Shown: positions 12,423 to 42,845, counted from the first letter of the stretch. The stretch is 46,765 nucleotides of DNA from a virus (IMGVR_UViG_3300044680_000172:1-46765), one strand, 5' to 3'. Notes: a model not told the origin generated them from the letters alone. Numbers and translations are program-made.

Positions 12423-12425
12423 GGG

Positions 12426-18430: not shown

Positions 18431-18860
18431 CCGCGATTTCAAAGCGCAAGCCCATTGCGGAGTCAACGACCTCAGCGTTACGGTTCCGAGACGATCGCAT
18501 TCGACCGGCGCCACCAGGCCCCTGCCTACAAGCCGGCCTCACGCGCGAGGAAAGGTGTGGAGGGGGCAATCGGATTCGGTCCGTGCGGCATCCATTCCCC
18601 AGGGAGGGGGGTGGCCGTGGGGTCAACCATCGCTCGACCGTCCGACCATCCGGGAGTGCCTGCGGCTGCCTGTCGCTGCGCACGGTCGCTAGACAGGCGG
18701 CGTTGCCATCCGACCAGCGGATCGCGCTCGGTCGGGGACTCTCCTTTCACGCTACGCAGCCGCGCACAAGGACTATGACTCCTCGCCAAGCCGGCGCCAC
18801 CGGATCGCTTGCGTCGAGGCGCGTTTCGCGTTTCCAGATTCCTTATCCTCGATCAACGAT
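18431..18860. other. 430-bp gap between terS and the acyltransferase gene
   Basis: No convincing gene. On the minus strand a GTG-started frame of about 75 codons crosses part of it, but its composition looks random. A TTGACC (complement near 18622-18627) could be a -35 box. Several CGACC/GGTCGG words are spread over 18630-18730. Packaging initiation sites often lie in or near terS, so a pac or cos site could be here, though nothing proves it. Confidence 0.3.
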
Positions 18861-21566: not shown

Positions 21567-21641
21567 TGGTTGCAGGGACCGGAATCGAACCGGCGACCTC
21601 CAGGTTATGAGCCTGGCGCGCTACCGCTGCGCCACCCTACG
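21567..21641 (-). tRNA. tRNA-Met (CAU), initiator-like
   Basis: 75 bases with an encoded CCA end. The anticodon loop is CTCATAA with a five-pair stem CCAGG/CCTGG. The D arm is GCGC/GCGC and the T arm CCGG-TTCGATT-CCGG. The first acceptor pair is C1 against A72, a mismatch that is the hallmark of bacterial initiator tRNA; the other six pairs form (one G-U). Against this, the anticodon stem has only two of the three consecutive G-C pairs of initiators, and position 11-24 is C-G. It is transcribed from the promoter at the end of the integrase gene. Confidence 0.88.
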
Positions 21642-21654
21642 AGCGCCGACCTCA

Positions 21655-21677
21655 TTACGTAACCGATACGGAGTCAA
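21655..21677 (-). promoter_or_regulatory. Promoter/operator for tRNA-Met and replication gene
   Basis: Minus strand TTGACT (21677-21672), nine bases, then TTACGTAA (21662-21655). The same TTGAC[GT]-N9-TTACGTA arrangement is present before the integrase and before the 23.5 kb regulator. It overlaps the last codon of the integrase gene and lies just upstream of the tRNA. Confidence 0.5.
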
Positions 21678-22693
21678 GCGGGAAATTCCAGGACGCGCGA
21701 TTCCGCAGCCTTCGGCGCAAGCCCGAAGAATTTCTCGCCCTCGGTCCGGGTGGTTAGCCCTCGGTAATGCCGGTGGAGGAGGGCCGGGCTTCCCATGTGC
21801 CCGAGCCAGAGGGAAACCTTGGATGCATCCGAGGTGAACGCGACGGCGTAGGTGGCGAATGTGTGCCGGTAGGCATCGTGGGGCCACTTCCGGCGTCGGT
21901 CGGTCCGGCGACCGAATCCGGCGAGGTACGCTCCCAACTCCTGCCAGCTGGGTGCCAAGGAGGAGGCGATCGGCGAGGAGGGCTTGCCAGGGCTCGGAAG
22001 CCATCTCCAGAGCGTTTCCGGAAGCCCCTCGACAATCCGGGCGTACCCGGTCTTGGCGATTTCGGCTGGGATGCGGATGATCCGCTCCTCGATGTTGAGG
22101 CAGCCCCAGGTAAGCGGCGGTTTGCCGACCCCGGCCACCTCATGCGGCCGTATGCCCGCGAAAAGGCAAAGGCAGATCGGAGCCAGATGCTTCCCGGCCC
22201 GGTCAAGGATCGCCTCGACCTCGGCGACCGAGAGAAAGGTGATCGTCTCGGGGCGTTCGGCGCTCACCTCCATCCCGGCCGTCACGTCCTCGCCCGCCAG
22301 AGCCGGCTCCTGCGCCGAAGCCCAGTTCCAGAAAACCCGGACGGCCCGGGCGTGGCTGCGCTTTGTCCCTTCCGCCGCCTCGAGCGAACCGACCCATTCC
22401 CGGACCTTCGCCTTCGTCACCTCGTTCATCGAAAAGCCGCCGAATTTCGAGACGAACGCCCCGATCTTGGATTCGTACCAGGCGTACGTGTGGCCGCGCG
22501 TAGTCAGGAGCCGGTCGTGGAGGAAGAGATTCGCGCACTCCCTAACCGAGATGTTCTTGACCGCTCTTCGGCCGGCGATAGCCAGCCGGGCGGCCTCGGA
22601 GAGCGATACTCCGGAGCCGGCGAGGATTTCGAGGGCCGAGCGGGCGTCGGACTTTTGATCCGCGCCGAGAAGGAAGTTTGATCGTGGGCTCAT
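21674..22693 (-). CDS. int: Tyrosine recombinase / phage integrase
   Basis: 339 aa. The N-terminal 45 residues are probably an arm-binding part. A SAM-like core-binding domain follows (residues 50-140) and then the catalytic domain. Visible catalytic residues are Arg182 (Gly-Ile-Arg-Pro-His-Glu), His272 and Arg276 (His-Asp-Ala-Tyr-Arg-His), His299 (Leu-Gly-His-Met-Gly) and the nucleophile Tyr310 (His-Tyr-Arg-Gly). It inserts the phage into the host chromosome by site-specific recombination, very likely at a tRNA-Phe gene, because the 3' half of such a gene lies 170 bp upstream. It has its own promoter with the shared operator word. Confidence 0.93.
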   Translation of the reverse strand: MSPRSNFLLGADQKSDARSALEILAGSGVSLSEAARLAIAGRRAVKNISVRECANLFLHDRLLTTRGHTYAWYESKIGAFVSKFGGFSMNEVTKAKVREWVGSLEAAEGTKRSHARAVRVFWNWASAQEPALAGEDVTAGMEVSAERPETITFLSVAEVEAILDRAGKHLAPICLCLFAGIRPHEVAGVGKPPLTWGCLNIEERIIRIPAEIAKTGYARIVEGLPETLWRWLPSPGKPSSPIASSLAPSWQELGAYLAGFGRRTDRRRKWPHDAYRHTFATYAVAFTSDASKVSLWLGHMGSPALLHRHYRGLTTRTEGEKFFGLAPKAAESRVLEFPA

Positions 22694-27701: not shown

Positions 27702-27733
27702 GAGCCGCGACCCATGCGAAAGGTCGGGGATGA
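27698..27733 (+). CDS. Micro-ORF, 11 aa, coupled on both sides
   Basis: The ATG lies in an ATGA overlap with the preceding stop, and its own TGA overlaps the ATG of the helicase-methyltransferase gene. It is a basic peptide. It may exist only to carry ribosomes across the gap. Confidence 0.35.
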   Translation: MRAATHAKGRG

Positions 27734-29943
27734 GCGACTACGACACCTTTATCGCTTCAAAGGTACGCCGCAATCTCGCGGCGGGTTTTGAACCGCAACC
27801 CATCAAGGCCCCGCTTTTCGACTGGCAAAAGAGCGTAGTGCGTTGGGCAATCCGTAATGGCCGGGCCGCTCTTTTTGAGGAGTGTGGATTAGGCAAGACC
27901 CTTCAGCAGCTTGAATGGGCTCGGCAGGTTTCGGCCCACGCCAAGGCCCCGGTCTTAATCTTGACGCCGCTCGCCGTCTCCCACCAGACGGCTGCAGAGG
28001 GCAAGAAGTTCGGAATCCCATGCAAGGTCGTGGCCGATCAATCGTCGGTCCGAGGAGCCGGTGTCTTTATCACTAATTACGAGAAGTTGGAGCACTTCGA
28101 GCCTTCGGCGTTCATCGGAGTAGTTTTGGATGAAAGCTCCTGCCTCAAGGCGTTTACCGGCAAGACGCGCATCGCACTGACTCGGGCCTTCGCCGATACG
28201 CGCTACCGTCTCTGCTGCACGGCGACTCCAAGCCCGAATGACTATACGGAGTTTGGACAGCACGCAGATTTCCTTGGGGTCTGTACGCCGTTCCAAATGC
28301 TAGCGACGTTCTTCGTCAACGATACCTTCAACACCGGAGACTGGAGGCTCAAGCGGCACGCCGAGGGAGAGTTTTGGAAATGGGTCGCGTCGTGGGCCTG
28401 CTGCGTCTCCAAGCCATCCGACATTGGCTACAAGGACGACGGCTATGAACTCCCGCCGCTGAGGATGCACACAGAGATAGTTGAGGTGGACGAGTCGGCG
28501 GAGTCCGGTGACGAACTATTCCGCCATGCCACCCTTTCCGCCACAACCATTCACCGGGAAATGCGGCTTACGAGCGCGGCCCGGGCCAAGCGCGTTGCTG
28601 AAATCGTGGCGGCCAAGCCATCCGAGCAATGGCTGGTCTGGTGCAACACTAACGATGAGGCGGACCATCTCAAGAATGCCATCCCGGACTGCGTTGAAGT
28701 CCGAGGTTCCGACACCCAGGCGACGAAAGAGAAGGCCATAGACGGATTCTTGAGCGGTTCCATCCGGGTGCTCGTGAGCAAGTCCTCAATCTTTGGATTC
28801 GGCCTCAACTTGCAGAACTGCGCCCACGTAGCCTTCGTCGGACTCTCCTACTCGTTCGAGGAGTTCTACCAAGCCCTGCGTCGCTCGTATCGGTTCGGCC
28901 AGACCCGCGAGGTCAACGCCTACGTCGTTCAAGCCGCTACTGAAGGAGCGATTTTACAGACTATTCAACGCAAAATCGAGCAGCATACTATTATGCAACA
29001 AGAGATGAAAAAAGCCTCCGCCGTTTTCGCCGAAAACCGAATCAAAGACCTATCCGTCAATACAGACATTATCGTTGCTTCCGGCCCCGGCTGGAAGCTC
29101 GCGCACGGTGATTGCGTGAGATTCGCCCGGACAATCCCGAACGAGAGCATAGATTTCACGATCTTCTCCCCGCCGTTTCCCGATTTATTCGTGTATTCGC
29201 ATGACCTGCAGGACATGGGCAACTGCGTAGGACTCGGCGAATTTACCAAGCACTTTGAAATCTTAGTCGAAGAGATGCAGCGGATCACAGTTCCGGGCCG
29301 AGAGATCGCCGTACACTGCGTCGACCTTCTCTCGACCAAATGGAAGCACGGGAAGATCCAGTTCCAGGATTTCCCCGGCGAGATTATCCGTACCTTCTGG
29401 AGCAAAGGATTTCTCTTCCACTCACGCATTACAATTTGGAAGTCGCCCGTGACCGAGATGCAACGGACGAAGGCCCACGGATTGCTTTACAAGACCCTCA
29501 AGGCCGACTCGACCGATTCACGTGTGGGGGCTCCGGATTACCTCCTTGTCTTCCGAAAGCCTGGGGAGAACCCAAGGCCGGTGACAAAAGACCCTTCCGT
29601 ATTTCCTGTCGATCTTTGGCAAGAGGTCGCTTCGCCGGTATGGATGACGGTGGATCAAAGCCGAGTCCTCAACGGCGAAGGGGCTAGAGACCAAGCAGAT
29701 GAACGCCACATCTGCCCTCTTCAACTCGACGTGATTGAACGCGCCGTGACGCTTTGGTCGAACCCCGGCGACCTCGTCTATTCGCCCTTCGCTGGCATCG
29801 GATCGGAAGGCTACTCGGCCTTGAAACTCGGCCGAAAATTCATCGGGTCCGAGTTGAAGAAATCCTATTGGGAATTAGCGCAGTCGAACCTGAACAATGC
29901 GACTGCCCAGGCTGAAATGTTCCAGCTAAAGGAGATCGCATGA
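27730..29943 (+). CDS. SNF2-like helicase fused to DNA methyltransferase
   Basis: 737 aa. Residues 20-420 form a superfamily 2 helicase: Gly-Leu-Gly-Lys-Thr (53-57), Asp-Glu-Ser-Ser (134-137) as the DExx box, Thr-Ala-Thr-Pro (164-167), and an Arg-Arg-Ser-Tyr-Arg-Phe-Gly-Gln motif VI (384-391). Residues 450-725 form a beta-class N4-cytosine/N6-adenine methyltransferase: Ser-Pro-Pro-Phe (480-483) as the catalytic motif, then Phe-Ala-Gly-Ile-Gly-Ser-Glu-Gly (687-694) binding SAM. One chain thus couples DNA translocation or remodelling to methylation, as in some phage and restriction proteins. G+C drops inside the gene (around 28.9-29.1 kb), which suggests transfer. Function in the phage may be anti-restriction or gene control. 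Confidence 0.88.
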   Translation: MSDYDTFIASKVRRNLAAGFEPQPIKAPLFDWQKSVVRWAIRNGRAALFEECGLGKTLQQLEWARQVSAHAKAPVLILTPLAVSHQTAAEGKKFGIPCKVVADQSSVRGAGVFITNYEKLEHFEPSAFIGVVLDESSCLKAFTGKTRIALTRAFADTRYRLCCTATPSPNDYTEFGQHADFLGVCTPFQMLATFFVNDTFNTGDWRLKRHAEGEFWKWVASWACCVSKPSDIGYKDDGYELPPLRMHTEIVEVDESAESGDELFRHATLSATTIHREMRLTSAARAKRVAEIVAAKPSEQWLVWCNTNDEADHLKNAIPDCVEVRGSDTQATKEKAIDGFLSGSIRVLVSKSSIFGFGLNLQNCAHVAFVGLSYSFEEFYQALRRSYRFGQTREVNAYVVQAATEGAILQTIQRKIEQHTIMQQEMKKASAVFAENRIKDLSVNTDIIVASGPGWKLAHGDCVRFARTIPNESIDFTIFSPPFPDLFVYSHDLQDMGNCVGLGEFTKHFEILVEEMQRITVPGREIAVHCVDLLSTKWKHGKIQFQDFPGEIIRTFWSKGFLFHSRITIWKSPVTEMQRTKAHGLLYKTLKADSTDSRVGAPDYLLVFRKPGENPRPVTKDPSVFPVDLWQEVASPVWMTVDQSRVLNGEGARDQADERHICPLQLDVIERAVTLWSNPGDLVYSPFAGIGSEGYSALKLGRKFIGSELKKSYWELAQSNLNNATAQAEMFQLKEIA

Positions 29944-31770: not shown

Positions 31771-32090
31771 CCCCTCACGACGAACTCAGCGCGGCGGTGG
31801 AGAGGCTGCGCGAAGACCTCTTGGCGATGCTAAGGGCCCTCACTGCCCTCCGCGCCGAGAACGAGCGGCTGCGGAGGGACAAGGAACGGTTGGACTGGCT
31901 GGAAACCGGAGGGCGATTGGCTTACTGGTCCGACGGCTGGGAGTGTTGCCTGCTGAAAGATGGCAGGGGGTTTGCCCTTCACAAAGCCAACGAAAGGCCG
32001 ACTGCGAGAGACGCCATTGATGCATCTATGGCACTTGGGGCGAACGCCGCCATGTCCGCCCGAGCCGCTGCGGACGGGGGGAGCGGATGA
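31767..32090 (+). CDS. Coiled-coil hypothetical protein, 107 aa
   Basis: Starts at the ATG 31767 (ATGA overlap). Residues 8-50 form a leucine/arginine-rich coiled coil (Leu-Arg-Ala-Glu-Asn-Glu-Arg-Leu-Arg-Arg), followed by Asp-Trp-Leu-Glu and a short domain with Cys-Cys and Ala-Ile-Asp-Ala. The Glu-Arg-Leu-Asp-Trp-Leu ending of the coil is a recurring pattern in small phage proteins of unknown role. Confidence 0.55.
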   Translation: MTPHDELSAAVERLREDLLAMLRALTALRAENERLRRDKERLDWLETGGRLAYWSDGWECCLLKDGRGFALHKANERPTARDAIDASMALGANAAMSARAAADGGSG

Positions 32091-32115
32091 AATGATCCGT
32101 CCGCTGCCGCCACAC

Positions 32116-32430
32116 TCAGTGCGACCGGGCTTCCGCGTCTTCCTGCTTGTCCTGCTCCCGCTCTAGAACCCTGATCCTTGCCTCGTGATCGGCCACCTGC
32201 GCCGCCGTATTCTTGGCGTCCGAGAATCCAGCCGTAACCGTCACCTTGAGGTCCTGCACGTCGGCCTTCACCGAGTTGATCGCGCTGTAGAGTGACGAAT
32301 CACGGTTCCTCTGATCCGAGTCCGTCAGAAAGTGCGGACCGAAGCCGCAAATCCCGCAGACGAGCAAGAGGATGATTTTGTCCTTCCACGGCATATAAGA
32401 GAGCTGCCTGATAGAATCCTTTTCGGCCAT
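32116..32430 (-). CDS. Membrane-anchored coiled-coil protein, 104 aa (possible lysis protein)
   Basis: One transmembrane segment (about residues 18-34, containing Cys-Gly-Ile-Cys-Gly) is followed by a helix with heptad spacing (Ile-Asn-Ser-Val-Lys-Ala-Asp-Val then Ala-Arg-Ile-Arg-Val-Leu-Glu-Arg-Glu). The topology fits an inner-membrane spanin or an XhlA-like lysis protein. The ATG at 32430 is chosen over a GTG at 32451. It lies next to a lipoprotein and a small hydrophobic protein, so a lysis cassette is a reasonable guess. Confidence 0.5.
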   Translation of the reverse strand: MAEKDSIRQLSYMPWKDKIILLLVCGICGFGPHFLTDSDQRNRDSSLYSAINSVKADVQDLKVTVTAGFSDAKNTAAQVADHEARIRVLEREQDKQEDAEARSH

Positions 32431-32474
32431 CGGGAGCGGGGTCAACACCACAGGTTCGAGCGATTGGAAGCCGG

Positions 32475-32939
32475 TCAGTTCTTGGGATTGGCCGCAGCGG
32501 TGGTCGCCGCCTGCGAAATCGCCGCTCCCAACTCCTGCAAGACGGCCTGCGCGTTCGGATCCTTCGCAAGAGCGGATTCCCCGACGGCTTCGAGGTAGGT
32601 GACAAGCCCCGCATCGACGCTGGCCTCGATGATGGAGGTGATCTGCGCGTCCCCTCCGGCCTTCGTCACGATCGCCCCGATCGCCGCGTTGACCCCTGCG
32701 GTCGTCAGATCCGTGTAGTTGTTCGTCGAGAGCGCCGTGCCGACCGTCTGCGCGATCGGGATGTACTTCGGGTTGTTTTCAAGGACGAGGGCCAAGCCCC
32801 CGGCGATGATCGGCTGACCCAGGGCGACCCCCTGAGCGCTCGTCATGGAGCCGAGGCCGGTTGTGGAGCAGCCGGAGAGTCCGACTGCGGCGCCGAGGGC
32901 GATGGAAAAGGCCAGGAATAGAGATGCGAAGAGTTTCAT
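32475..32939 (-). CDS. Lipoprotein, 154 aa
   Basis: A type II signal peptide is clear: Met-Lys, a hydrophobic stretch, then the lipobox Leu-Ser-Gly-Cys with Cys at residue 24. The mature part is Ala/Ile/Thr-rich and probably helical. Lipidation would anchor it in the outer membrane. In a phage this could be an o-spanin-like or superinfection-exclusion lipoprotein; it is longer than a usual o-spanin. It follows the small hydrophobic gene by one base. Confidence 0.72.
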   Translation of the reverse strand: MKLFASLFLAFSIALGAAVGLSGCSTTGLGSMTSAQGVALGQPIIAGGLALVLENNPKYIPIAQTVGTALSTNNYTDLTTAGVNAAIGAIVTKAGGDAQITSIIEASVDAGLVTYLEAVGESALAKDPNAQAVLQELGAAISQAATTAAANPKN

Positions 32940-32940
32940 G

Positions 32941-33177
32941 TCATTTCGAGGTCGAGGGCGCGGGAGCGACCGGGGGCGCCGGGGTGGGCGGCACGTTCCC
33001 GGTCAGGTAATACGTCTTGATGATGGTCGAGAGCCCGGCCGCGGTGCCGGCGACAACGCCGACCCAGGGGGCCACGAGCGAGAGACCAGGCAGCGACGCC
33101 ACCGTGGTCACGATGCCACAGCCCTGGACGATTTCGGCCAGGATGTGACAGACTTTCGGATTGAGGTTCAGATTCAT
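32941..33177 (-). CDS. Small hydrophobic protein, 78 aa (holin-like)
   Basis: Starts at the ATG 33177. One or two hydrophobic segments (about residues 17-33 and 36-52, Gly/Ala/Val-rich) are followed by a Pro/Ala-rich tail ending in Ser-Lys. Size and layout resemble class II holins. Next come a lipoprotein and a membrane-anchored coiled-coil protein, which together may form the lysis cassette. No endolysin is seen nearby. Confidence 0.45.
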   Translation of the reverse strand: MNLNLNPKVCHILAEIVQGCGIVTTVASLPGLSLVAPWVGVVAGTAAGLSTIIKTYYLTGNVPPTPAPPVAPAPSTSK

Positions 33178-33179
33178 GG

Positions 33180-34109
33180 TCAAAATGTGATCGAGCCGCC
33201 GGAGGTCCAGACGTACACCCAATTTCCCCCGGTGTTCGTGATCGTTGGGCCTCCGGTCGTCGAAGCGGCCTTCGAATAGGTGTTGGGGTAGGAAATGGCG
33301 ACCGCCCCGTTATAGCCCGCGGCACCCGAGGTGTTCGCGCCCCCGCCGCCCCCGCCGCCCCCGCCCCCGTAATTCGTCGCCGCGTTGCCGGTCGCCTTCC
33401 AGGCTCCCCCCGCACCACCCCCGCCCGTCCCGCCCGCGCCGCCAGTCCCGCCCGAAGAGTTGGCCGGTCCGCCGCCCCCTCCGCCGCAGACGGTGCCCCC
33501 CAGGATGGAAACGCTGGTTCCCGCCCCTCCGGCCCCTCCCGCATTCGGTGACGGATATAGGCCGATTGAGCCGATCGCGCTCGAGCCGCCCCCGCCGCCG
33601 GCCGATCCCTCGTCGGAAGCATCGCTCTTGCCCCCGGCATAGCCTTGGCCGCTCGTTCCGGTCCCTCCGTTGGTCTGTCCGTTGTCTGCGTTGTCGCCGC
33701 CCCCGCCGCCCCCGGAGCCGCCCGCAGTGCCGTTATTTCCGCCCCCGCCGCTATCTCCAGCTCCCCCACCGCCGCCGCCCGTTGCGGTCACGCTGCCGAA
33801 CGCGGAATTTCCGCCACTCCCGCCTTGGGAGTGCGCGGAACCGGCCGAGCCCGCCGCCCCGACAGTGACGGTGTAAGTCCCACTCGACACCGCAAAGCTT
33901 GCATTTTGCGAAAGACCCCCTGCGCCTCCTCCTCCTCCTCCTCCCAAGCCTGCGCCGCCACCCCCCCCGCCACCCCCCGCGACGACGGCCACCGAGACCG
34001 ACGACGGAGGGGTGTATGCGCCGGTCGAAAACCCCTGCGTCTTGGCCGCAAGCGATGCGCCGAGAAGCCCAAGGGCGAAAATCCAAGGGAGGCGTGGGGC
34101 GGCCTTCAC
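33180..34109 (-). CDS. Gly-rich secreted fibre/adhesin-like protein, 309 aa
   Basis: GTG start. Residues 1-22 look like a signal peptide (Lys and Arg, then Ile-Phe-Ala-Leu-Gly-Leu-Leu-Gly, with an Ala-x-Ala site). The rest is dominated by runs of Gly separated by Ser, Asn, Ala and Thr, as in glycine-rich phage adhesins (T-even gp38-like polyglycine sandwiches), with a more normal C-terminal strand. Glycine-rich tips vary fast and contact receptors. A signal peptide on such a protein is unusual. The strongly repetitive GGN codons make many antisense frames open. Confidence 0.65.
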   Translation of the reverse strand: MKAAPRLPWIFALGLLGASLAAKTQGFSTGAYTPPSSVSVAVVAGGGGGGGGAGLGGGGGGGAGGLSQNASFAVSSGTYTVTVGAAGSAGSAHSQGGSGGNSAFGSVTATGGGGGGAGDSGGGGNNGTAGGSGGGGGGDNADNGQTNGGTGTSGQGYAGGKSDASDEGSAGGGGGSSAIGSIGLYPSPNAGGAGGAGTSVSILGGTVCGGGGGGPANSSGGTGGAGGTGGGGAGGAWKATGNAATNYGGGGGGGGGGANTSGAAGYNGAVAISYPNTYSKAASTTGGPTITNTGGNWVYVWTSGGSITF

Positions 34110-34112
34110 GGA

Positions 34113-34520
34113 TCAATGGAGGAATAGTGTGAGGCAAAAGGCCGATCCGGGCCCCGTGGTCCCGACCGGCGTCGTAGTCGCGGCAACGACGACACCCTGC
34201 GAGAAAAGGATCGGCGGAATCTGCGCGTTATCGAGCGGGAAACCGCCCGCGACGGCCAGGATCATCTTCGGGGTCGTGGTCCCCAGGATGACGGAGGTCG
34301 GGGAAGCCGCGTCGAAAAATTGGACGAAATAAATCGTCGAGGAATTCGGATTGCTGATGTTGTAGCCGCCCAGGCTGATCGTCCCGGCGTATGCCTGGAC
34401 CGGCGTCGAGGAGAGCGAGACGTTGACGTAGGTCGTCGCATAGGGAAGCGGAACCTGAGCGGCGAGGCGAAGGCCCAAAAAGAGGGCCGCGATTGCGAGG
34501 ATTTTGGCGATGGTCTTCAT
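34113..34520 (-). CDS. Secreted small beta protein, 135 aa
   Basis: Starts at the ATG 34520. A classic signal peptide: Met-Lys, then Ile-Leu-Ala-Ile-Ala-Ala-Leu-Phe-Leu-Gly, and Leu-Ala-Ala before Gln. The mature part is about 110 residues of beta-type sequence with a Tyr-Phe-Val-Gln-Phe-Phe-Asp-Ala strand that resembles fibre-tip or carbohydrate-binding modules. It lies between a spike-like and a glycine-rich protein, all with signal peptides. Confidence 0.6.
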   Translation of the reverse strand: MKTIAKILAIAALFLGLRLAAQVPLPYATTYVNVSLSSTPVQAYAGTISLGGYNISNPNSSTIYFVQFFDAASPTSVILGTTTPKMILAVAGGFPLDNAQIPPILFSQGVVVAATTTPVGTTGPGSAFCLTLFLH

Positions 34521-34524
34521 GGGC

Positions 34525-36399
34525 TCAAAAATTGACGGTCGTATTCGGGGTGCTGTAATCCGATCCGTTCTCAGTCTCGAGCGGCCAATAGACCCCTTCG
34601 AGAACAATGGAACCGGACGGGCATCCGCTGTCCGTCGATATGTTGCAGGCGATGTTCGGGCCGGAATAAACGTAGCTGTACGGCTGCGCCACCCCGCCCG
34701 CGTAGGAGGATATGTCGACCGATTGGCCGTCGACGAGAGCCCCCGCGACGTTGTTGCCCGAATTGCTCCAGAGGCTCGTCACATGCGCCGATACCCCGCT
34801 CGTCGCGTAGGCCCGACAGTACTGGATCATCCCGGTGATCCCGAGGGATTCGGCGACGCTGCTCATGTTGGCCGATGTCGTGATGACGTACCGGAACTGC
34901 TTCAGTTCGGGGAAGATCGTCCCGTTCCAATTGAGCGTCCCGAAGACGTTGTTCCAGGTGATGGCCAGGGCGGCTCCGTATGCTCCGCTCGCGTAGCTCT
35001 TGAAAAAAAAGGCCGGGTTTTCGACCCTAACCTGGGCGCCTGCCACCGCGAAATTGGGATAGCCGAGGGCATTGGCGGTCTCGATTGAAAACCGCGGATT
35101 TCGGATGACGATTCCCGAAGCCTCGCCGCTGCCGATCTGGAACGGGGTCCAATTGCCGGCGTTGTTGTTCGGCTGGGCGACCCCGAGGCCGACGTTGAGT
35201 CCGTCGAAGAGCAGATTCCGGTCGATGCTCTCCAGGTCGAAGAAGTGGCCGGCCCCGAGGTGCTGGACCGTGATGTCCCGGAAGACCCCATTGTAATCCT
35301 GCCAGGAGTCGAAGAGGAAGGAACCATAGGGCGGCCCCGGGTCGGCGGGGTTGGTCGGCGGCGAACCGGCGACACCGAGTAGCGGGGTGCAATCCTCCAG
35401 GTAGCAGTTGTCGACGGTCCAATTGAAGGAGTAGGTGAACTGGAACGGCCGGGGGTTGTTGCCGAAAAACCAGAGGTTGCTCAGGTGGGCATTCTCGGAA
35501 TAGGTCACGTTGATCGACCCTAGCGTCTTGAAACCGATGTCGCGGATGACCATTCCCCGGTCGTTTCCGGTGACAAGATACGCCTTGTGGGAGGTCCCGT
35601 TGACGTTCTCTGGGAAGCTCTGATCGAAGGTGACGGTCGAGCTATTGATGTTCGTCACGGTCGCAAACAGGACGTTCCAGGGGAGCGTGCTGTCGTTCGG
35701 ATCGACTCCGAGGAGAAGGGCCATGCGGCTCCCCGTGGAGATCCCTGAGACCGAGTTGAAGGTGAGCGACCGGTCGCCGGCATAGAGGGTGCCGCTCGCC
35801 GTGTAGGCGGTCGACCCGAGGACGGTCGGGCCTTGCGAATTTTGGTTGACCTCCAGCCAGTAGCCAATGTCGACGTTGTAGGTGCCGAAGAGGTTGCCGG
35901 TCGGGTCGATAAGGGAGGCGGAAGACCCGTCGCCGTAAAAGGTGATCGACGCCGGAAAATAGAGGTTCTGGCCGAGCTTGTACGTTCCGGCCGTCAGGTG
36001 GAACCGGTATCCGGCGGCCGCGCAATAGTTGGCGGCCGCCTGCAGGGCCGCGCCGTCGGAGTGCGAGTCGTCCCCCCAGGCTCCGAACTGCCTTCCCGTG
36101 ACCTCGCCATTGGTCGTCACCAAAAGCCACCGTCCGGTCCCGGTGGAGCTCGAAAGGACGCTTCCCCCATCGACCGTGGCCGCGCTCGAATAGCTGTACC
36201 GGTAAAGGGCGCCTCCGCCGTCCCCCGCCGAATTGTATCCGAGGGTCTGGACGGTCGTCCCGTCGAGCGACTGGTTGACCGCGAACGCCTCCAAAAGCGC
36301 CACGGTAGGCACCGTCTTGAGAGCAGGGGAGGGAACGAGCTGCCCGAACGCCGCCGCGGCGCCTAGGGCGAACGCCAGGAGGGTCGAGATCCGCCTCAC
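34525..36399 (-). CDS. Tailspike-like protein, pectate-lyase superfamily, with signal peptide
   Basis: 624 aa. The GTG at 36399 overlaps the TGA of the gene before it (GTGA); the longer open frame upstream is rejected. Residues 1-20 form a signal peptide (Arg-Arg, hydrophobic core, Phe-Gly before Gln). From residue 95 a head-binding style linker (Phe-Gly-Ala-Trp-Gly-Asp-Asp plus Asp-Gly-Ala-Ala-Leu-Gln-Ala-Ala) leads into a right-handed beta-helix (pectate lyase 3 type), as in tailspikes that cut capsule or O-antigen. Catalytic residues cannot be assigned. A signal peptide is not expected on a normal tailspike, since virions assemble in the cytoplasm. Confidence 0.75.
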   Translation of the reverse strand: MRRISTLLAFALGAAAAFGQLVPSPALKTVPTVALLEAFAVNQSLDGTTVQTLGYNSAGDGGGALYRYSYSSAATVDGGSVLSSSTGTGRWLLVTTNGEVTGRQFGAWGDDSHSDGAALQAAANYCAAAGYRFHLTAGTYKLGQNLYFPASITFYGDGSSASLIDPTGNLFGTYNVDIGYWLEVNQNSQGPTVLGSTAYTASGTLYAGDRSLTFNSVSGISTGSRMALLLGVDPNDSTLPWNVLFATVTNINSSTVTFDQSFPENVNGTSHKAYLVTGNDRGMVIRDIGFKTLGSINVTYSENAHLSNLWFFGNNPRPFQFTYSFNWTVDNCYLEDCTPLLGVAGSPPTNPADPGPPYGSFLFDSWQDYNGVFRDITVQHLGAGHFFDLESIDRNLLFDGLNVGLGVAQPNNNAGNWTPFQIGSGEASGIVIRNPRFSIETANALGYPNFAVAGAQVRVENPAFFFKSYASGAYGAALAITWNNVFGTLNWNGTIFPELKQFRYVITTSANMSSVAESLGITGMIQYCRAYATSGVSAHVTSLWSNSGNNVAGALVDGQSVDISSYAGGVAQPYSYVYSGPNIACNISTDSGCPSGSIVLEGVYWPLETENGSDYSTPNTTVNF

Positions 36400-37130
36400 G
36401 GAATTTGCGTGACCGCGAGCGTGCTGCCGGCCAGGACGGTCGAGTTGGTGGCGTTCGAACCGTTCTGCGCGAACTGGATGACGAAGGTCCCCCCGTTCGT
36501 CACGTCGAGTTCGCCCTCGATGACGATTTCGGTCGCAGTCGAGTTCGAAGCCCCCGACGGCCCCGACAGGAACGAGAGGAGTTGTCCGCCGTAGACGCTG
36601 GTCGTTCCCCCCCGGGCGAGATATTCGGCCACGAAATTCGAGGTGTTGCAGGTCCCGCCCACATCGATCTTCGAGCCGCCTGCCCCGAGGCTGACGAAGA
36701 GGTCCGCCCGAAACGTGTAGTGGCAATTCGTCTGGAGGACGGTCGCAACCGAGAAAGGTATCGTGGCGAGCGTGGTTCCAGTGGTCGAGCTGTTGACCGA
36801 GAATGGAATGATCGTCCGAGTGATCTGGGTTCCGATGGCCGCGTTGACGACCCCGGGCAATACCTGCTGTTGGGTCGGGGCGTATCCAGCGATCCCGTTG
36901 GCCTTCGTCATGTGCGACCACGCATGGGCCTGGTCGGTCGCCGAGGTCGAGGGATCGAATATGGCGGTGATCGGGCGTTCGGCGCAATAGGCGATGGCGA
37001 ACGGGACTGTGTGGCCAGTCGAATCGGTGTAGGTGTACTGGTTCAGGGCATACGGCTGCGGGCCGACCTGAGCCAGCGCGACGGCGGATGCGAAGGCGAA
37101 ACAGAAGAGCGATGCGATGAGTCTTTTCAT
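36396..37130 (-). CDS. Secreted fibre-like protein, 244 aa
   Basis: A strong signal peptide: Met-Lys-Arg, hydrophobic core to residue 20, Ala-Leu-Ala before Gln. The mature part is beta-rich with Thr, Ser, Gly and Asn, two Cys pairs possible, and repeated Ile-Pro-Phe-Ser-Val strands (two copies near residues 110 and 125). It could be a fibre or spike partner. It shares a GTGA junction with the tailspike-like gene, and a terminator-like hairpin separates it from the capsid gene upstream. Confidence 0.62.
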   Translation of the reverse strand: MKRLIASLFCFAFASAVALAQVGPQPYALNQYTYTDSTGHTVPFAIAYCAERPITAIFDPSTSATDQAHAWSHMTKANGIAGYAPTQQQVLPGVVNAAIGTQITRTIIPFSVNSSTTGTTLATIPFSVATVLQTNCHYTFRADLFVSLGAGGSKIDVGGTCNTSNFVAEYLARGGTTSVYGGQLLSFLSGPSGASNSTATEIVIEGELDVTNGGTFVIQFAQNGSNATNSTVLAGSTLAVTQIP

Positions 37131-37169
37131 GGTGATTTGGATTGGGCGGTTTGGTTTGAACCGATCCGA

Positions 37170-37202
37170 GCGGAAGCCCCAGACCCCCTCCGGGGCCTCC
37201 GC
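37170..37202 (-). terminator. Hairpin downstream of the major capsid gene
   Basis: Inverted repeat of 11 bases (37170-37180 with 37192-37202, one G-U on the RNA) with an 11-base loop, starting 16 bases after the capsid stop. There is no long T run, so it may be a partial terminator or a 3' stabilising hairpin that gives the capsid gene more mRNA than the fibre genes behind it. Confidence 0.55.
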
Positions 37203-37217
37203 CGGACCATGCGCGGG

Positions 37218-38402
37218 TCAGTCGACAGCGATCGTCAGCCCCGCGTAGGCGAGTTCCGGGAACTCGGGCATCGCGGCCTGTTGGATGTCCAGCCGGTAGA
37301 ACCCGTAGTTGCCGAGGACGTTGATGTTCATGTCCGGGTTGTTGATCCACCGGATTTCCCCCGAGTACGTGACCGGGTTGAAGGCCATGAGGCCGGCTTG
37401 GAGCGGACCGACGGGCCGGGGGCGCTTGCTGAAGACGCCTCGGGCCGTGGCCGAGAACGCCTCATAGACGGCGCTCCCGCCGTTCTTGACGGTGCGGTAC
37501 GCCGAATTCGGCTGCGCTTGAGTACCCTTCGTAACCGGGTTGTTGACGTAGGGATAGATCGGATTGAAGCCGATGTCGTACCGGACGGCGTTCAGATCGA
37601 CGTTGGGGAGCCAGCCGTTGATCGCCGAGTCGATGCCGCGGGCGAGGAAGTTCCGGCTGTACTCTTTGCCCATGTCCATGAAGTCGACGCTCGTCCGGAC
37701 GTTCTGCGTCCCCTGATAGAGGAGGCGCTTCAGGCCCGGGCCGCAGTTGAGCGCATAGACCGGGGTCCCGTCGGACATTCCGACCGCGTTCTGTTGGGCG
37801 CCGATCTGGTTCAGCCGGTCGTAGATCTGGCCGAGCATCGCCCAGTCTAGCGGAACAACCGGGACGTTTCCTGCGAGCGGGGCGAAGTTGTACCCGGCCG
37901 TCGTCGCCGTCGTGAACTGGCCGGCCCCAGTCGTCGATAGTTGCGTCAGCGGCTGCCCGATGTAGTAGATCCGGGCCCAGTCACCCTGGTACTGGGTCAC
38001 GAAGTCTCCGAGCCCTTTCTCGCGGAACCGGGCCTGCTGCTCCCACTGAAACTTGAACTGCAGGTCGGTCAGGCAGAAGACTTCCGTCTGCCCGGCAAAA
38101 ACGTTCAGGTTGAACGTGCGCTCCAGGTAGCCGCCGCCGATATTGATGACCCCGGGCGAGCAGGCGGCGTTGCCGGTGCCCGAGGACAGCGCGAGCGCCG
38201 TTTGGGTCAGCGGAAGATAGGAGGTGGGCAGTTCGTGGGTCGCGGTGACGACCGTCGGGGTCAAGCCCATCTCCAGTTCGAAGGGCTTTTGCTCGATGAG
38301 TCCCGCGTAGGGATCGGTCGTCCAGTAGCGGTCAAAGATGTTGTTTTCGAACTGATTGCGCCGCGTCTCGAAATAGGAATTGATGTTCGATAGATTGGCC
38401 AT
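37218..38402 (-). CDS. Major capsid protein (probable)
   Basis: 394 aa, a usual size for a phage coat protein. It starts with a helical, Asn/Phe/Arg-rich segment (Asn-Ser-Tyr-Phe-Glu-Thr-Arg-Arg) and continues with mixed alpha/beta sequence. Near the C-terminus it has Gly-Glu-Ile-Arg-Trp-Ile-Asn-Asn-Pro-Asp and Phe-Tyr-Arg-Leu-Asp, as seen in HK97-fold coat proteins of several podoviruses. A long structured leader before it and a hairpin after it fit very high expression. It is displaced from the scaffold gene by most of the genome. The call is by size, context and style; a structure prediction would settle it. Confidence 0.65.
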   Translation of the reverse strand: MANLSNINSYFETRRNQFENNIFDRYWTTDPYAGLIEQKPFELEMGLTPTVVTATHELPTSYLPLTQTALALSSGTGNAACSPGVINIGGGYLERTFNLNVFAGQTEVFCLTDLQFKFQWEQQARFREKGLGDFVTQYQGDWARIYYIGQPLTQLSTTGAGQFTTATTAGYNFAPLAGNVPVVPLDWAMLGQIYDRLNQIGAQQNAVGMSDGTPVYALNCGPGLKRLLYQGTQNVRTSVDFMDMGKEYSRNFLARGIDSAINGWLPNVDLNAVRYDIGFNPIYPYVNNPVTKGTQAQPNSAYRTVKNGGSAVYEAFSATARGVFSKRPRPVGPLQAGLMAFNPVTYSGEIRWINNPDMNINVLGNYGFYRLDIQQAAMPEFPELAYAGLTIAVD

Positions 38403-38405
38403 GAC

Positions 38406-38576
38406 GAGTGATTGCTGACGTTGGGTGATCCCGGTTCTCGCGTGCGAATGCCCGCTGGTCGCCGGTTGTTTCGAGGTGGCCAGTCCTCCTTTGGCCGGGT
38501 GCCGCTATGCGGCCTGAAGTCGGGGCAATCACTCCCGGCGCTTTGAGATTGAAGCGACGTTTGGGATAGCGCCGGG
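38406..38576 (-). promoter_or_regulatory. Structured leader of the capsid gene
   Basis: GAGTGATTGC (38406-38415) and GCAATCACTC (38525-38534) form a perfect 10-base inverted repeat, with one arm ending three bases before the capsid ATG. A second inverted repeat CCCGGCGCT/AGCGCCGGG (38534-38542, 38568-38576) abuts it. Inside are a GCCGC-ATA-GCGGC hairpin and a strong Shine-Dalgarno-like AAAGGAGGA (38492-38484) with no start codon at the right distance, held in a GGCC/GGCC loop. This may be an RNA element controlling capsid translation. Confidence 0.45.
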
Positions 38577-38581
38577 CGGCT

Positions 38582-38618
38582 GTCAAGACGTAATCGCTAC
38601 GTAATGGGCTTGACCTGC
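38582..38618. promoter_or_regulatory. Promoter/operator between capsid and glycosyltransferase genes
   Basis: CGTAATCGCTACGTAATGG (38589-38607) repeats the operator word of 23446-23460 with one change in the core. Plus strand TTGACC (38610-38615) is a -35 candidate for the 38.6 kb operon. On the minus strand TTGACA (complement of 38580-38585) is a -35 for the capsid gene. The operator lies between them, so one protein could control both directions. Confidence 0.5.
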
Positions 38619-38644
38619 GCAAAGGCTTAGCACACTGAAGCCCC

Positions 38645-38845
38645 ATGTCCGCGTCCACAGAGACCCCGCCGGTCGTCAGAGAATGGCTGTCCGAGCAGGG
38701 AAAAAAGAACCTGGGAAAGCGGTGTCCCGGAAGACGCCGGGGGGACTCGGAATACTACCGGAAGCTCGCCTTCATGCGGTACGAGAAGGAGAGAAAACAG
38801 AAGGAATCCAGAAAACAAATACAAGATGAACCCCCCGCTCTTTAG
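38645..38845 (+). CDS. Small basic protein, 66 aa
   Basis: First gene of the glycosyltransferase operon. Lys/Arg-rich (Gly-Lys-Lys-Asn-Leu-Gly-Lys-Arg, then Met-Arg-Tyr-Glu-Lys-Glu-Arg-Lys-Gln-Lys), with one Cys. It is likely helical and may bind nucleic acid or a phosphate surface. Its end overlaps the next gene by 20 bases. No family recognised. Confidence 0.5.
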   Translation: MSASTETPPVVREWLSEQGKKNLGKRCPGRRRGDSEYYRKLAFMRYEKERKQKESRKQIQDEPPAL

Positions 38846-40373
38846 CATCTCGATCCTGGCCTACAACAATCTCGCCCTCACCCGGAAATGCCTTGAGTCG
38901 GTCGCCTCCCAGGGAGGGGACTTCGAGCTGATCCTGACCGACAACGGATCGAAAGACGGGGTGGGCGCCTACATGGACGAATTTGCCCGCGCCGAATCGG
39001 CCAAGCGCCCCGTGTCGGTCGTCCACAATAAGAAGAACCTCGGCTTCATCGAGCCCAACCGGCAGGCGTTCAAGCGAGCGATCGGCAAGTACTTCGTCAT
39101 GCTGAACAACGACACGACGGTCAGCCCCCATTGGCTCGATTTGTTGAAGGCCCCGTTCCAGGGAGACCCGCTGTGCGCCCTGACAGGTCCGGCCGGCGGC
39201 TGCTGCCAATTGCGGTCGGATTTCGTCGGGGAACTCGGCCCACGGTTCGAGTACCTGGAGGGGGCGATGCTTTGCGCCGACCGGGAGAAGATCATGGCGG
39301 CGCAGCCCGATCTTTTCCCGCCCGAGCTGGCCGGGGCCTACGGGGAGGATTCGTTTCTTTCGCTTCGGATGCGCGAGGCCGGGTACACGCTTCACCGGGT
39401 CGCCATCGACTTCAAGCACGCGAGGGCCGCGACGACCGCGATGGTTCCGCAGGCGCGGGAATGGCAGGCGAAGAACCACGAATTCCTGAAGCAGAGATTC
39501 CGCAATTACATGGTCTCCCGCAGGTTCAACTTCCCGACGATCATCAAGCGGAACGCCGCCCGCGGCGATGTGCTGCTGACGACCGCCGTCATCCGCGGCC
39601 TGAAATCGATCCGGCCGCTCTCCCCGATCTTCGTCGAAACCCACTGCCCCGAGGCTCTGGAGCGCAACCCGGACATTTTCCATGTCGGGGCGTCGGTCCC
39701 GTACTCGCCTGACGCCCTTCAGATCAACCTGAACGGGATCTCCGAGATGAATCCGGCTGTCCCCATCGTGGACGCCTACGCAGCGTGCGCGGGCATCGAG
39801 CTCGAGGACGAGACGACCTCGATCTATCCGCCGCAGCCCGACATCGAATGGGCGAAGCGGACGGTCGACTCCTCCTGGGTCGCGGTCTTCGCCGGGCCGA
39901 CGACGTGGAGGTGCAAGAACTGGCCTTTCGACCGCTGGAGCGAGGTCATCCGCTGGCTTCAGGAGTCGGGGGTCCGGGTCGTCCTTGTGGGTGGCGATCC
40001 GGTTCCCCCGACCCTGAAGGCGGACCTCGATTTGCGGTCGAGGACGACGGTCGGACAATTGGGCGCGCTCCTCGGCGAGGTCGGTCTTTTCGTCGGGCTG
40101 GACTCCTTTCCGATCCACGTCGCCCAGGCGATGAAGACCCCCGTCGTCGGACTTTTCGGGATCACCAGTGCGGACAAGATTCTGACCCGCGGATCGCACT
40201 GGATCGCCGTCTCCTCGGACCCCGATCACCCCGGGACCGGGCTTAGGCACAAGATCGCGGGCAAGACCCACGTCGACCACCCGGACAACCCCATGGACAC
40301 GATCTCCGTCGATCAGGTGAAGGCCGCGATCTCGGAGATGCTGCCGGCCCTTTCTGGACGGAAAACCCAATGA
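38826..40373 (+). CDS. GT2-GT9 fusion glycosyltransferase
   Basis: 515 aa in two parts. Residues 5-225 are a GT-A fold family 2 transferase: Ser-Ile-Ser-Ile-Leu-Ala-Tyr-Asn-Asn start, Thr-Asp-Asn-Gly-Ser, Asn-Leu-Gly-Phe, and Leu-Asn-Asn-Asp-Thr (93-97) as the metal-binding DxD equivalent. Residues 240-510 resemble family 9 heptosyltransferases (WaaC/WaaF type): Arg-Gly-Asp-Val-Leu-Leu-Thr-Thr, a Phe-Ala-Gly-Pro-Thr-Thr block and Gly-Leu-Asp-Ser-Phe-Pro-Ile-His near residue 422. The two would add two sugars in turn to a glycan. Coupled to the next gene by ATGA. Confidence 0.8.
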   Translation: MNPPLFSISILAYNNLALTRKCLESVASQGGDFELILTDNGSKDGVGAYMDEFARAESAKRPVSVVHNKKNLGFIEPNRQAFKRAIGKYFVMLNNDTTVSPHWLDLLKAPFQGDPLCALTGPAGGCCQLRSDFVGELGPRFEYLEGAMLCADREKIMAAQPDLFPPELAGAYGEDSFLSLRMREAGYTLHRVAIDFKHARAATTAMVPQAREWQAKNHEFLKQRFRNYMVSRRFNFPTIIKRNAARGDVLLTTAVIRGLKSIRPLSPIFVETHCPEALERNPDIFHVGASVPYSPDALQINLNGISEMNPAVPIVDAYAACAGIELEDETTSIYPPQPDIEWAKRTVDSSWVAVFAGPTTWRCKNWPFDRWSEVIRWLQESGVRVVLVGGDPVPPTLKADLDLRSRTTVGQLGALLGEVGLFVGLDSFPIHVAQAMKTPVVGLFGITSADKILTRGSHWIAVSSDPDHPGTGLRHKIAGKTHVDHPDNPMDTISVDQVKAAISEMLPALSGRKTQ

Positions 40374-41191
40374 CAGCCTTGAAGCACGGTCTTTCCGGGT
40401 ACGTCCCGATCCGGGACGGGATTCGTCTCGACTATTGCTTCACCGAGGCGATCGAAAGCCTGTTGCCGGTCTGCGACGAGGTGATCGCGATCGATTCCGA
40501 GAGTGCGGACGGCACCCGGTATCTGCTCGACCATTGGTCAAAACACGAGCCCAAGCTGCGAGTCGTCTCCTACCCGTGGCCCCGGCTCCCGACGCCCGAG
40601 GAGGTCGAGCGGGACGACCCCAAGCGCCCCCCCGGGGACCCCAGGATGCTCATCGCGTGGCTCAATTACGGAAGAGCGAGGTGTCTCTACGACCGGCAGA
40701 TCACCCTCGACGCCGACGAAATCCTCGACCCAGCCTCCCATCCGGAGATTCGCCGGGCCGTAGAGGACGGAATACCCCGGTGGTTCAACCGAGTGAACCT
40801 CTGGGGCGACCCCTTCCACGAGGCCCCGCACGGGACGGTCTGCGGCGAGCGTGTCGTCAGGATCGCGCCGACATCGATGGAGATGTGTTCCGACGAGCCC
40901 CGGCCCGAAGGGGAGCCGGAGATTCGTCGTCTGGCGATCGACGGGCCGCAGTTGACGATCTTCCACATGGGGTTCCTCCGGCCGCAGGATGCGTTTTTGC
41001 GGAAGTCAAGGATCATGCAGGCGGCTCTCCACAACTGCTACGACCCGAGGCTGCGCGAATCCGAGAGGACTGGGCGCTCCTGGACCGATGCCTCCCCGTT
41101 CCCGGAAGGCTATCCGATCCTTGCGTTCGATGGGAATCGCCTCCCTCCGCTCGCAAAGTCCTGGTGCCGAGAAAGAGGATACCGGATATGA
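40370..41191 (+). CDS. GT2-like glycosyltransferase
   Basis: 273 aa. Residues 30-110 have the family 2 opening (Cys-Asp-Glu-Val-Ile-Ala-Ile-Asp-Ser-Glu-Ser-Ala-Asp-Gly-Thr) and Thr-Leu-Asp-Ala-Asp-Glu (about 112-117) as the DxD site. Later there are His and Trp residues in the acceptor region (Phe-His-Met-Gly-Phe-Leu-Arg). Similar proteins work on lipopolysaccharide core sugars. The start overlaps the previous stop; the stop overlaps the GNAT start. Confidence 0.7.
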   Translation: MTALKHGLSGYVPIRDGIRLDYCFTEAIESLLPVCDEVIAIDSESADGTRYLLDHWSKHEPKLRVVSYPWPRLPTPEEVERDDPKRPPGDPRMLIAWLNYGRARCLYDRQITLDADEILDPASHPEIRRAVEDGIPRWFNRVNLWGDPFHEAPHGTVCGERVVRIAPTSMEMCSDEPRPEGEPEIRRLAIDGPQLTIFHMGFLRPQDAFLRKSRIMQAALHNCYDPRLRESERTGRSWTDASPFPEGYPILAFDGNRLPPLAKSWCRERGYRI

Positions 41192-41643
41192 TACCGGCGA
41201 CCGAGAGGATTCCGCCCAACGTCTTCGATTCTCCGCCCGGGGAATTCTTTGTATCGTCGGACAAGTCGCTGCTCAACATACCTTGGATTTTCGACCAATT
41301 GAAAAGGACGTATTGGGGCGGCTGGCTCGATGTCGCCCGCGTCTCGCGGTCGATCGACTTTTCGCTCTGTTTCGGGCTTTATCGCAAGGAGGACGGACGG
41401 AATCTCCAGATCGGATTCGCCCGCGTCGTCACCGACTTTTCGACCTTCGCTTGGCTCTGCGATGTCGTCGTGGCGAGCGCCTACCGGAAGAGGGGCCTCG
41501 GGACATTCCTTATCCGTTGCGTCGTCAACCACCCCGAGGTCGCCCCGAGAAGCGTCCTACTCTCGACTAACGACGCCCATGACCTGTATCGCAGATTCGG
41601 ATTCAGCGAGATAACCGCGATGAAGCGCCAGGGCACGGGCTGA
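41188..41643 (+). CDS. GNAT-family N-acetyltransferase
   Basis: 151 aa. It has the GNAT core: Ile-Gly-Phe-Ala-Arg-Val-Val-Thr-Asp strand, Trp-Leu-Cys-Asp-Val-Val-Val, then Tyr-Arg-Lys-Arg-Gly-Leu-Gly-Thr as the acetyl-CoA pyrophosphate loop (Arg-x-x-Gly-x-Gly/Ala), and Asp-Leu-Tyr-Arg-Arg-Phe-Gly-Phe at the end. It may acetylate an amino sugar made or moved by the neighbouring transferases, or a protein. Start is the ATG 41188 in an ATGA overlap. Confidence 0.82.
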   Translation: MIPATERIPPNVFDSPPGEFFVSSDKSLLNIPWIFDQLKRTYWGGWLDVARVSRSIDFSLCFGLYRKEDGRNLQIGFARVVTDFSTFAWLCDVVVASAYRKRGLGTFLIRCVVNHPEVAPRSVLLSTNDAHDLYRRFGFSEITAMKRQGTG

Positions 41644-42845
41644 TGCACATCCTCAAGATCGGAAGTTCGGTTTCTCTCGGGCAACAGGGAACAATGGCCC
41701 CCGGAGAATACCTCGTCGAGGACCGCAACGGGGCCGAACTCATGCTTCGGAATCCGGGCTCGACGATGACCCCGCTCGATCCATCCCGGTTTCCGGCGCT
41801 GGACATCGGGACAACGGACCCGGAGAAGGTCCATGACATACTGCTCGTAGCCCCGGTCGCTTTCGGGGACGCGATCCTTCTGACCCCATGCCTCCGGGAG
41901 ATCAAGCGGAGACTCCCCCGCTCATCGTTATCCTTCTCCTGCTTCTTCGAGCACCGGCAGGTCTTCGCCGGACTTTCCTACATCGACGCCTTTGAGCCGT
42001 ATCCGTTGCCATGGAAAGAGGACGCGAACCGGCGACTCCTTTTCCTTGAAAGATCGGTCGACGGCCATCCGCGGGGCAAGATCCAGCACATGACAGATCG
42101 TTACGCGGAACACCTCGGGCTTGGGGAAATCGCGGACAAGCGAACCGAACTTGTCCTAAGCGGTGAGGAGCGGGAATGGGTCGAGGGCGCGTTTCCGAAA
42201 TCGAATCTGCGCCGCATCGGAATCCAGGTCCAGGCCGGTGCCCGCTGCAAGACCTGGCCCGGGCGCCACCTGAATCTGCTTGTCAATTCGCTCGCCCGGG
42301 ACGGCTTCGAGGTTTGGCTCATGGGGCGCGCCGGGGAATTCACCGCCACGGTCGGCGAAAATATCTTCGATCTTTCGAGGTTTTCTCCGACGTGGCGGCA
42401 ATCGGCGGCCTTCCTGACGACCTGCGACGCCTTCGTCGGCCCGGATTCCTCGCTCTTGCACGCGGCGGGAACCCTTGGAGTCCCCTCGGTCGGCCTGTTC
42501 GGGCCCTTCCCATGGAAACTTTTGACGGCCTACTACGGGAGCGTATTCGCAATCCAGGGGACAGAGGGGTGCGGGAGCTTTCCGTGCTTCCATTGGCCGC
42601 AGCCGGGATTAGCACCGTTCCCCGAAGGGGAGCCCTGCTACCGATCCGGCCGCTGCGAGGTCCTGGCCTCTATTCTCCCGGAGCGGGTTCTTGCGAAGCT
42701 GAAGCAGGTTCTGGCTCAGGCTCGGAAAGCGCCTCTCCAAGAAGCTGCGACCGGAGAACGTACCGAAGAATCTCCCGGGCCTGTGCCGAAACCGACTGCC
42801 TGTCCTGCAACGCCTGAAGGTACGCCTGCTTCTGCTCCTGACTGA
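41643..42845 (+). CDS. GT9 family (heptosyltransferase-like) glycosyltransferase
   Basis: 400 aa. After an N-terminal 60-residue addition, the GT9 fold begins: Val-Ala-Phe-Gly-Asp-Ala-Ile-Leu-Leu-Thr-Pro, a Gln-Val-Gln-Ala-Gly-Ala-Arg-Cys-Lys-Thr-Trp-Pro block near 210, and Gly-Pro-Asp-Ser-Ser-Leu-Leu-His-Ala-Ala-Gly near 270, the donor-binding motif. Such enzymes add heptose to lipid A-core. The last 50 residues are Pro/Glu/Ala-rich and run 176 bases antisense into the internal virion protein gene, so the true end may be earlier in function than in sequence. Confidence 0.78.
   Translation: MHILKIGSSVSLGQQGTMAPGEYLVEDRNGAELMLRNPGSTMTPLDPSRFPALDIGTTDPEKVHDILLVAPVAFGDAILLTPCLREIKRRLPRSSLSFSCFFEHRQVFAGLSYIDAFEPYPLPWKEDANRRLLFLERSVDGHPRGKIQHMTDRYAEHLGLGEIADKRTELVLSGEEREWVEGAFPKSNLRRIGIQVQAGARCKTWPGRHLNLLVNSLARDGFEVWLMGRAGEFTATVGENIFDLSRFSPTWRQSAAFLTTCDAFVGPDSSLLHAAGTLGVPSVGLFGPFPWKLLTAYYGSVFAIQGTEGCGSFPCFHWPQPGLAPFPEGEPCYRSGRCEVLASILPERVLAKLKQVLAQARKAPLQEAATGERTEESPGPVPKPTACPATPEGTPASAPD

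Follow-up and report, generated by a model that had tools for sequence, protein, structure and literature searches.

The virus record IMGVR_UViG_3300044680_000172 (46,765 bases, 48 called genes), analysed in its entirety and called the window below, is a podovirus-like phage contig whose large terminase shows distant kinship to epsilon15-type podophages. On its minus strand, behind a candidate capsid gene, lie four consecutive spike- or fibre-like genes, each of which begins with a predicted signal peptide. Synthesis and assembly of tail proteins are generally taken to occur in the cytoplasm. Two other phages are needed to describe the locus: G001 (IMGVR_UViG_3300035564_000113, 52 kb), which is syntenic with the window and has most tail and head genes in common with it, mostly at 37-80% identity, and G004, an unrelated phage with an HK97-type capsid protein. 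Read along the minus strand, the locus contains the following genes:

37218-38402, minus strand: candidate major capsid protein, opening the late operon, 80% identical to the syntenic G001 gene
36396-37130, minus strand: predicted signal peptide (residues 1-20) and a 224-residue mature protein, 244 residues in all, the C-terminal half matching a tail-fibre-like G004 protein
34525-36399, minus strand: predicted signal peptide (1-19) and a pectate-lyase-type beta-helix spike, 624 residues, GTG start, PF12708 at E 1.5e-9
34113-34520, minus strand: predicted signal peptide (1-21), the weakest of the four, and a 114-residue protein, 135 residues in all
33180-34109, minus strand: predicted signal peptide (1-22) and a glycine-rich adhesin-like protein, 309 residues, PF21722 (Gly_rich_2) at E 2.4e-7
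32941-33177, minus strand: small hydrophobic protein of 78 residues between the cassette and the lipoprotein, a holin candidate by position and hydrophobicity, with no family match
32475-32939, minus strand: lipoprotein with lipobox LSGC, possible outer spanin
32116-32451, minus strand: possible inner spanin, with one membrane segment and a coiled-coil-like tail by sequence reading and no family match

The four open reading frames (ORFs) of the cassette lie where a sequence-only reading of this DNA had placed them, and its description of their N-termini (a basic n-region, a hydrophobic core, a small-residue cleavage site and Gln after the cut in three) is borne out by scoring. The scorer combined a weight matrix built from 42 well-known Escherichia coli and M13 signal peptides with terms for the hydrophobic (h-) region and for charge; the 42 known signals, each left out in turn, score 5.1-18.9. 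Exactly five of the 48 window genes exceed 7, namely 36396-37130 (9.4), 34525-36399 (9.2), 34113-34520 (8.5), 33180-34109 (7.1) and the lipoprotein (7.5), and the runner-up reaches 3.9; the cassette scores of 7.1-9.4 thus compare with at most 3.9 in the other non-lipoprotein genes. Of the 450 genes of ten phages, related or used for comparison, 16 score above 7. Whole-protein shuffles match the observed score in 8, 2, 25 and 7 cases per 2000 for the four genes (0.1-1.3%). All four N-termini have the layout of Sec substrates cut by signal peptidase I, with a K/R n-region, a hydrophobic core and small residues at -3 and -1, 34113-34520 being borderline at -3. The predicted cleavage sites ("/" marks the cut) are MKRLIASLFCFAFASAVALA/QVGP, MRRISTLLAFALGAAAAFG/QLVP, MKTIAKILAIAALFLGLRLAA/QVPL and MKAAPRLPWIFALGLLGASLAA/KTQ, of which MKTIAKILAIAALFLGLRLAA/QVPL belongs to 34113-34520 and has an Arg near the cut.

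The start codons agree with these assignments. The start at 36399 overlaps the preceding stop by 4 bp and those at 34520 and 34109 lie 4 and 3 bp past the preceding stops, a spacing (-4/+4/+3 bp) that supports three of the starts. The start of 36396-37130 is supported by the lack of another usable one, the next in-frame start not coming before codon 74. A wrong start codon was dismissed for this gene and for the signal-bearing spike of phage G010 described below, since later starts yield no plausible gene in either. The export signals on the four window genes are thereby confirmed as predicted signal peptides.

The mature parts are of spike and fibre type and differ from one another. The protein at 34525-36399, which the sequence-only reading had taken for a pectate-lyase-type beta helix, matches, besides PF12708, PHROG families of tail fibres, exopolysaccharide depolymerases and tail spikes. 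The glycine-rich adhesin was likewise correctly recognised; 33180-34109 also has a long match to phrog_2295 (E 6e-28) and a weak one to phrog_863 (tail; 1e-4). Residues 105-232 of 36396-37130 are 34% identical to the G004 gene product at 12083-12844, which has no signal and whose N-terminal domain matches PHROG tail fibre families. Nothing above the cut-off was found for 34113-34520 in Pfam, PHROGs or NCBIfam. Searches of solved structures gave no real match for the spike 34525-36399 or for 36396-37130, and the AlphaFold models are poor, with a predicted local distance difference test (pLDDT) score of 51 for 36396-37130 (3 alignment rows) and 43 for 34113-34520 (single sequence). No domain is common to the four proteins behind the signal; three of them begin with Q[VL]xP. 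In the form Q[VL]x(0-1)P, the motif is common to the mature N-termini of these three and of the G001 spike, and is missing from six unrelated signal-bearing proteins.

The five signal-bearing genes of the window are contiguous except for one small ORF. The lipoprotein had been described as following the cassette: it is a lipoprotein, but 32941-33177 stands in between. The order on the minus strand is thus capsid candidate, four signal-bearing genes, small hydrophobic ORF, lipoprotein and membrane/coil-like protein, and the genes downstream of the cassette form a putative lysis cassette. Family searches returned no spanin match for the lipoprotein, whose lipobox and nearby membrane/coil-like protein were seen by inspection; short lipoproteins occupy similar places in G001 (37690-38037) and G010 (5690-6061). 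The lysis region of G001 also contains a class 3 lipase (PF01764) at 18064-18741 of locus L006. Upstream, the capsid gene lies on the same strand at a gap of 87 bp, and a simple consensus scan of 32000-39000, this gap included, gave no promoter-like site. The capsid label is given by position, because Pfam gave nothing for the product and the PHROG match is at chance level; it is ~36% identical to a gene behind the portal/scaffold block in G008 and G009. These two belong, with G003 and G005-G007, to a set of remoter relatives retrieved via terminase and portal queries.

Beyond the capsid gene and oriented away from it, a surface-sugar gene block occupies 38826-42845 on the plus strand (a GT2+GT9 fusion, a GT2-like gene, a GNAT acetyltransferase and a GT9 gene), the first and third genes of which have relatives near the corresponding position in G001. 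An acyltransferase gene lies apart from it at 16859-18430. At 27730-29943, a single long ORF reads as an apparent SNF2-like helicase joined to a DNA methylase.

The same locus is occupied by spikes and fibres in relatives of the window phage. In G001 the capsid candidate is followed by an 832-residue spike (PF12708, E 1.4e-16), whose tblastn matches include tailspikes of isolated phages. It carries the predicted signal MKRLYSLFFTFAMLANINTA/QVVP (cut at "/"; score 5.9), and its likeness to the window spike is confined to ~125 residues (35-36% identity). Behind the capsid gene of G008 and G009 come a 180-residue gene and next a fibre without signal, of LamG lectin type in G008; G009 is read only from an open contig end. 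Because signal-less fibres stand there in G008 and G009, the position behind the capsid gene is, on gene order, a place for fibres across the wider group, and a predicted signal there marks the window/G001 branch.

The window phage has a second fibre locus:

6080-6994, minus strand: canonical tail-fibre locus without signal, 304 residues, score 0.4, flanked by conserved tail genes at 6994-8046 and 4232-6073

Its N-terminal motif WAALVPWSG is common to G001, G003 and G007, and the genes with this WAAL/FAAV-type anchor vary in their ends: 304 residues in the window, a 67-residue stub in G001 (locus L005, 14635-14838), a 679-residue beta-helix spike in G003 (L014, 9043-11082) and three tandem collagen-like fibres in G007 (L035, 11556-13914). 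In G001, where the canonical fibre gene is thus down to 67 residues, no large spike other than the signal-bearing one was recognised.

Signal-bearing spikes also occur outside this group. The survey covered 80 fibre-repeat and 79 pectate-lyase spike loci from IMG/VR, taken as best matches to two consensus queries and not as a random sample. A real signal is present in 2 of the 72 fibre genes with a complete N-terminus (G004 and locus L047) and in 1 of 72 spike genes (L138, in G010), rates that are rough because of the best-match sampling and because G004 had fed the first query. On the short contig of L047 no closed gene was recovered for the fibre, which makes it uncertain whether the setting is a phage. 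L195 resembles the start of a lipoprotein, and L154 and L156, in spite of high scores, have no real hydrophobic core and were not counted. On these counts, rough as they are, the idea that signals are common on fibre and spike genes was rejected. G004 carries three successive signal-bearing fibre-like genes, downstream of the capsid gene and among head genes.

The most informative case is G010 (48 kb). Portal, head-closure, DNA-ejection and major head PHROGs mark it as a P22-like podophage; a check for the PF03237 terminase gave no match. Its spike (1276 residues) contains two PF07484 tail collar stretches, also matches the pectate-lyase spike consensus, and begins MKKLFVGLLCYVLSVAPVFA/QATLLPNAKQVFLDSVGNPLVGG. 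The canonical podophage tailspike anchor domain that follows this signal begins at the initiator Met, without signal, in the isolated or complete podophages ctfPj964 (MATLLPNGKQQF), Rhodoferax phage P26218 (MATLLPEGKQSF) and Pseudomonas phage PAE2 (MTQLLPNGKQHF). At the junction, A/QATLLPNAKQ in G010 stands against MATLLPNGKQ in ctfPj964 and MATLLPEGKQ in Rhodoferax P26218, where the A/Q cut is read from the -3/-1 rule and the scorer itself cuts two residues later, after QA. Since the signal ends where the signal-less relatives begin, the cleaved spike would have a nearly standard anchor N-terminus. The anchor is single-copy in G010, and upstream start codons occur only within the signal (codons 1 and 6). 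Two small signal-bearing, knob-like proteins are encoded near the terminase gene of this phage (locus L206, 11309-11722 and 12350-12925), and one of the two matches the C-terminal end of a Klebsiella phage depolymerase/tail fibre; such small signal-bearing proteins may be widespread in podophages. Together, these phages confirm, as far as gene sequences go, the signal-bearing spike as a genuine form of the phage spike that is rare and recurs in unrelated phages.

From the signals, gene order, domain types and recurrence, we infer where the proteins would go and act. In the favoured explanation (probability roughly 0.4), the genes form a late cassette of spike and fibre proteins that would leave the cytoplasm through Sec, mature in the periplasm and attach to virions at lysis. 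The proteins, expressed late, would enter the host Sec pathway, signal peptidase would cut off the leader, and the mature spikes and adhesins would fold in the periplasm. When the adjoining putative lysis genes open the cell, the mature proteins would first meet the virions built in the cytoplasm, and at least the large spike would then dock on the tail. P22-type tailspikes are known to dock last, and in P22 their addition to heads can also take place outside the cell. This explanation draws mostly on G010, whose spike is the sole anchor-bearing one, and on the stub at the other fibre locus of G001. The window phage alone is not decisive, because its signal-less fibre is also present; for the same reason a virion role of its four cassette proteins is something we infer.

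Several observations weigh against docking at lysis. The virion of the window phage need not use the exported proteins, as the fibre with the family anchor motif at 6080-6994 is retained. A beta-helix trimer would need to fold in the periplasm, because Sec passes unfolded chains. The mature N-termini of the window proteins show no recognisable conserved virion anchor, only the weak Q[VL]xP motif; an N-terminal virion-binding domain is likewise not recognisable in the window and G001 spikes, and is present and exact in G010. To our knowledge, no tailed phage with such exported spikes has been described. The open literature on signal peptides of tail fibres and spikes contained no description either, an absence that is weak evidence since most subscription journals lay outside its scope.

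The sequence-only reading had preferred proteins that the phage makes the host export, such as depolymerases, decoys or lysogen surface proteins, with a structural role as a remote option. The signals, the spike/fibre nature and the rarity stand. A role apart from the virion is the main rival, quite possible but less favoured: late in infection the proteins would trim or mask host glycans in the periplasm or at the surface, so that debris does not capture newly released virions and other phages are kept from binding. Sec export is the ordinary meaning of a signal, the separate fibre at 6080-6994 could serve the virion, and the glycosyltransferases and acyltransferase of the window could alter the surface. 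There is precedent in an exported bacterial tailspike fold, Pantoea WceF (PMC7949094), and in the phage-exported envelope proteins Cor (PMC4936722) and Lom (PMC12309495). The G010 spike, however, retains a virion anchor and collar domain behind its signal, with no other copy of the anchor in that phage, four different binding modules in a row resemble a receptor-binding set more than a single enzyme, and cytoplasmic enzymes would be released by lysis regardless. The G010 anchor and the G001 stub thus move the weight towards a structural role, which is leaned towards and not settled.

A service to the lysogen, with the genes as captured host surface adhesins, is improbable. Bacteria do encode signal-bearing phage-like fibres, the mosaic adhesive trimer (MAT) superfamily of Bdellovibrio (PMC10769870), and the window phage may be temperate: a weak tyrosine integrase match at 21674-22693, together with a tRNA-Met (CAT) at 21567-21641, 32 bp from the integrase gene and a possible attachment site, suggests such a lifestyle. 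Two genome-contig scans for prophage relatives or a host, with the capsid and portal as queries, gave zero matches, and tblastn against INPHARED phages gave nothing for the capsid candidate, the spike, the portal, 36396-37130 or 34113-34520. The lysogen surface role that had been proposed earlier is made less likely by the position of the cassette, on the same strand as the capsid gene and tightly spaced between it and the putative lysis cassette, and by the result of the promoter scan. In relatives, moreover, that place is taken by a different spike (G001) or by fibres (G008 and G009), and G010 retains a phage anchor.

Least probable of all is that the N-termini stay uncleaved and fix the spikes to the virion or to membranes as hydrophobic anchors: the Q[VL]x(0-1)P motif after the signal of three window proteins and the G001 spike could make this region a docking element, but the signals lack a clear common sequence and yet have the n/h/c layout in common, small residues before the cut included, the known anchors (the WAALVPWSG family; P22-like phages) are not hydrophobic leaders, and in G010 the signal precedes a complete anchor.

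Taken beyond the window, docking at lysis would mean that some tailed phages export receptor-binding spikes via Sec, let them mature in the periplasm and do not complete virions until lysis or later. Such an assembly outside the cytoplasm is put forward tentatively. Should several unrelated phages indeed export their spikes, then virion assembly ends outside the cytoplasm, or else spikes serve as free enzymes or masks during infection. Either outcome would alter how spikes are annotated and used, as virion-based receptor-binding protein annotation and depolymerase mining would need the signal removed; export would also make disulfide-bearing spikes possible. A signal that ends at the first residue of an anchor offers a checkable rule for further cases.

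Among known systems, the closest are podophage tailspikes with an N-terminal anchor, such as those of Xanthomonas phage PBR31 and Shewanella phage X14, which likewise have a late spike gene; the PBR31 spike also adjoins lysis genes. G010 shares with podophage tailspikes the N-terminal anchor domain and the tail collar domain, and the window and G001 have the pectate-lyase-type domain. The known podophage tailspikes examined begin directly with the anchor (candidate starts all score negative), whereas a Sec-type signal comes first in the window, G001 and G010. The target proteins of phage diversity-generating retroelements were also found in a survey to lack signal peptides (PMC6199706). Phage products that are sent to the envelope include Lom, exported there by the phage (PMC12309495), and the Cor lipoproteins, which prevent superinfection (PMC4936722); they differ in being a beta-barrel or a lipoprotein without spike or fibre modules. 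Phage signal-peptide endolysins (SP-endolysins; for example PMC8951688) are late proteins exported by Sec before lysis, as is proposed for the cassette, but are peptidoglycan enzymes and not spikes. In the MAT proteins of Bdellovibrio a signal is followed by phage-like fibre modules, as in the window; these are bacterial genes, however, and have a conserved domain of ~130 residues behind the signal (PMC10769870), where the four window proteins share none. Pantoea WceF, finally, also places a tailspike-type beta-helix behind a cleavable export signal. It differs in being bacterial, in having a signal of the Tat and not the Sec type, and in the position of its gene within an exopolysaccharide cluster, and its authors suggest that it trims chains in the periplasm (PMC7949094).

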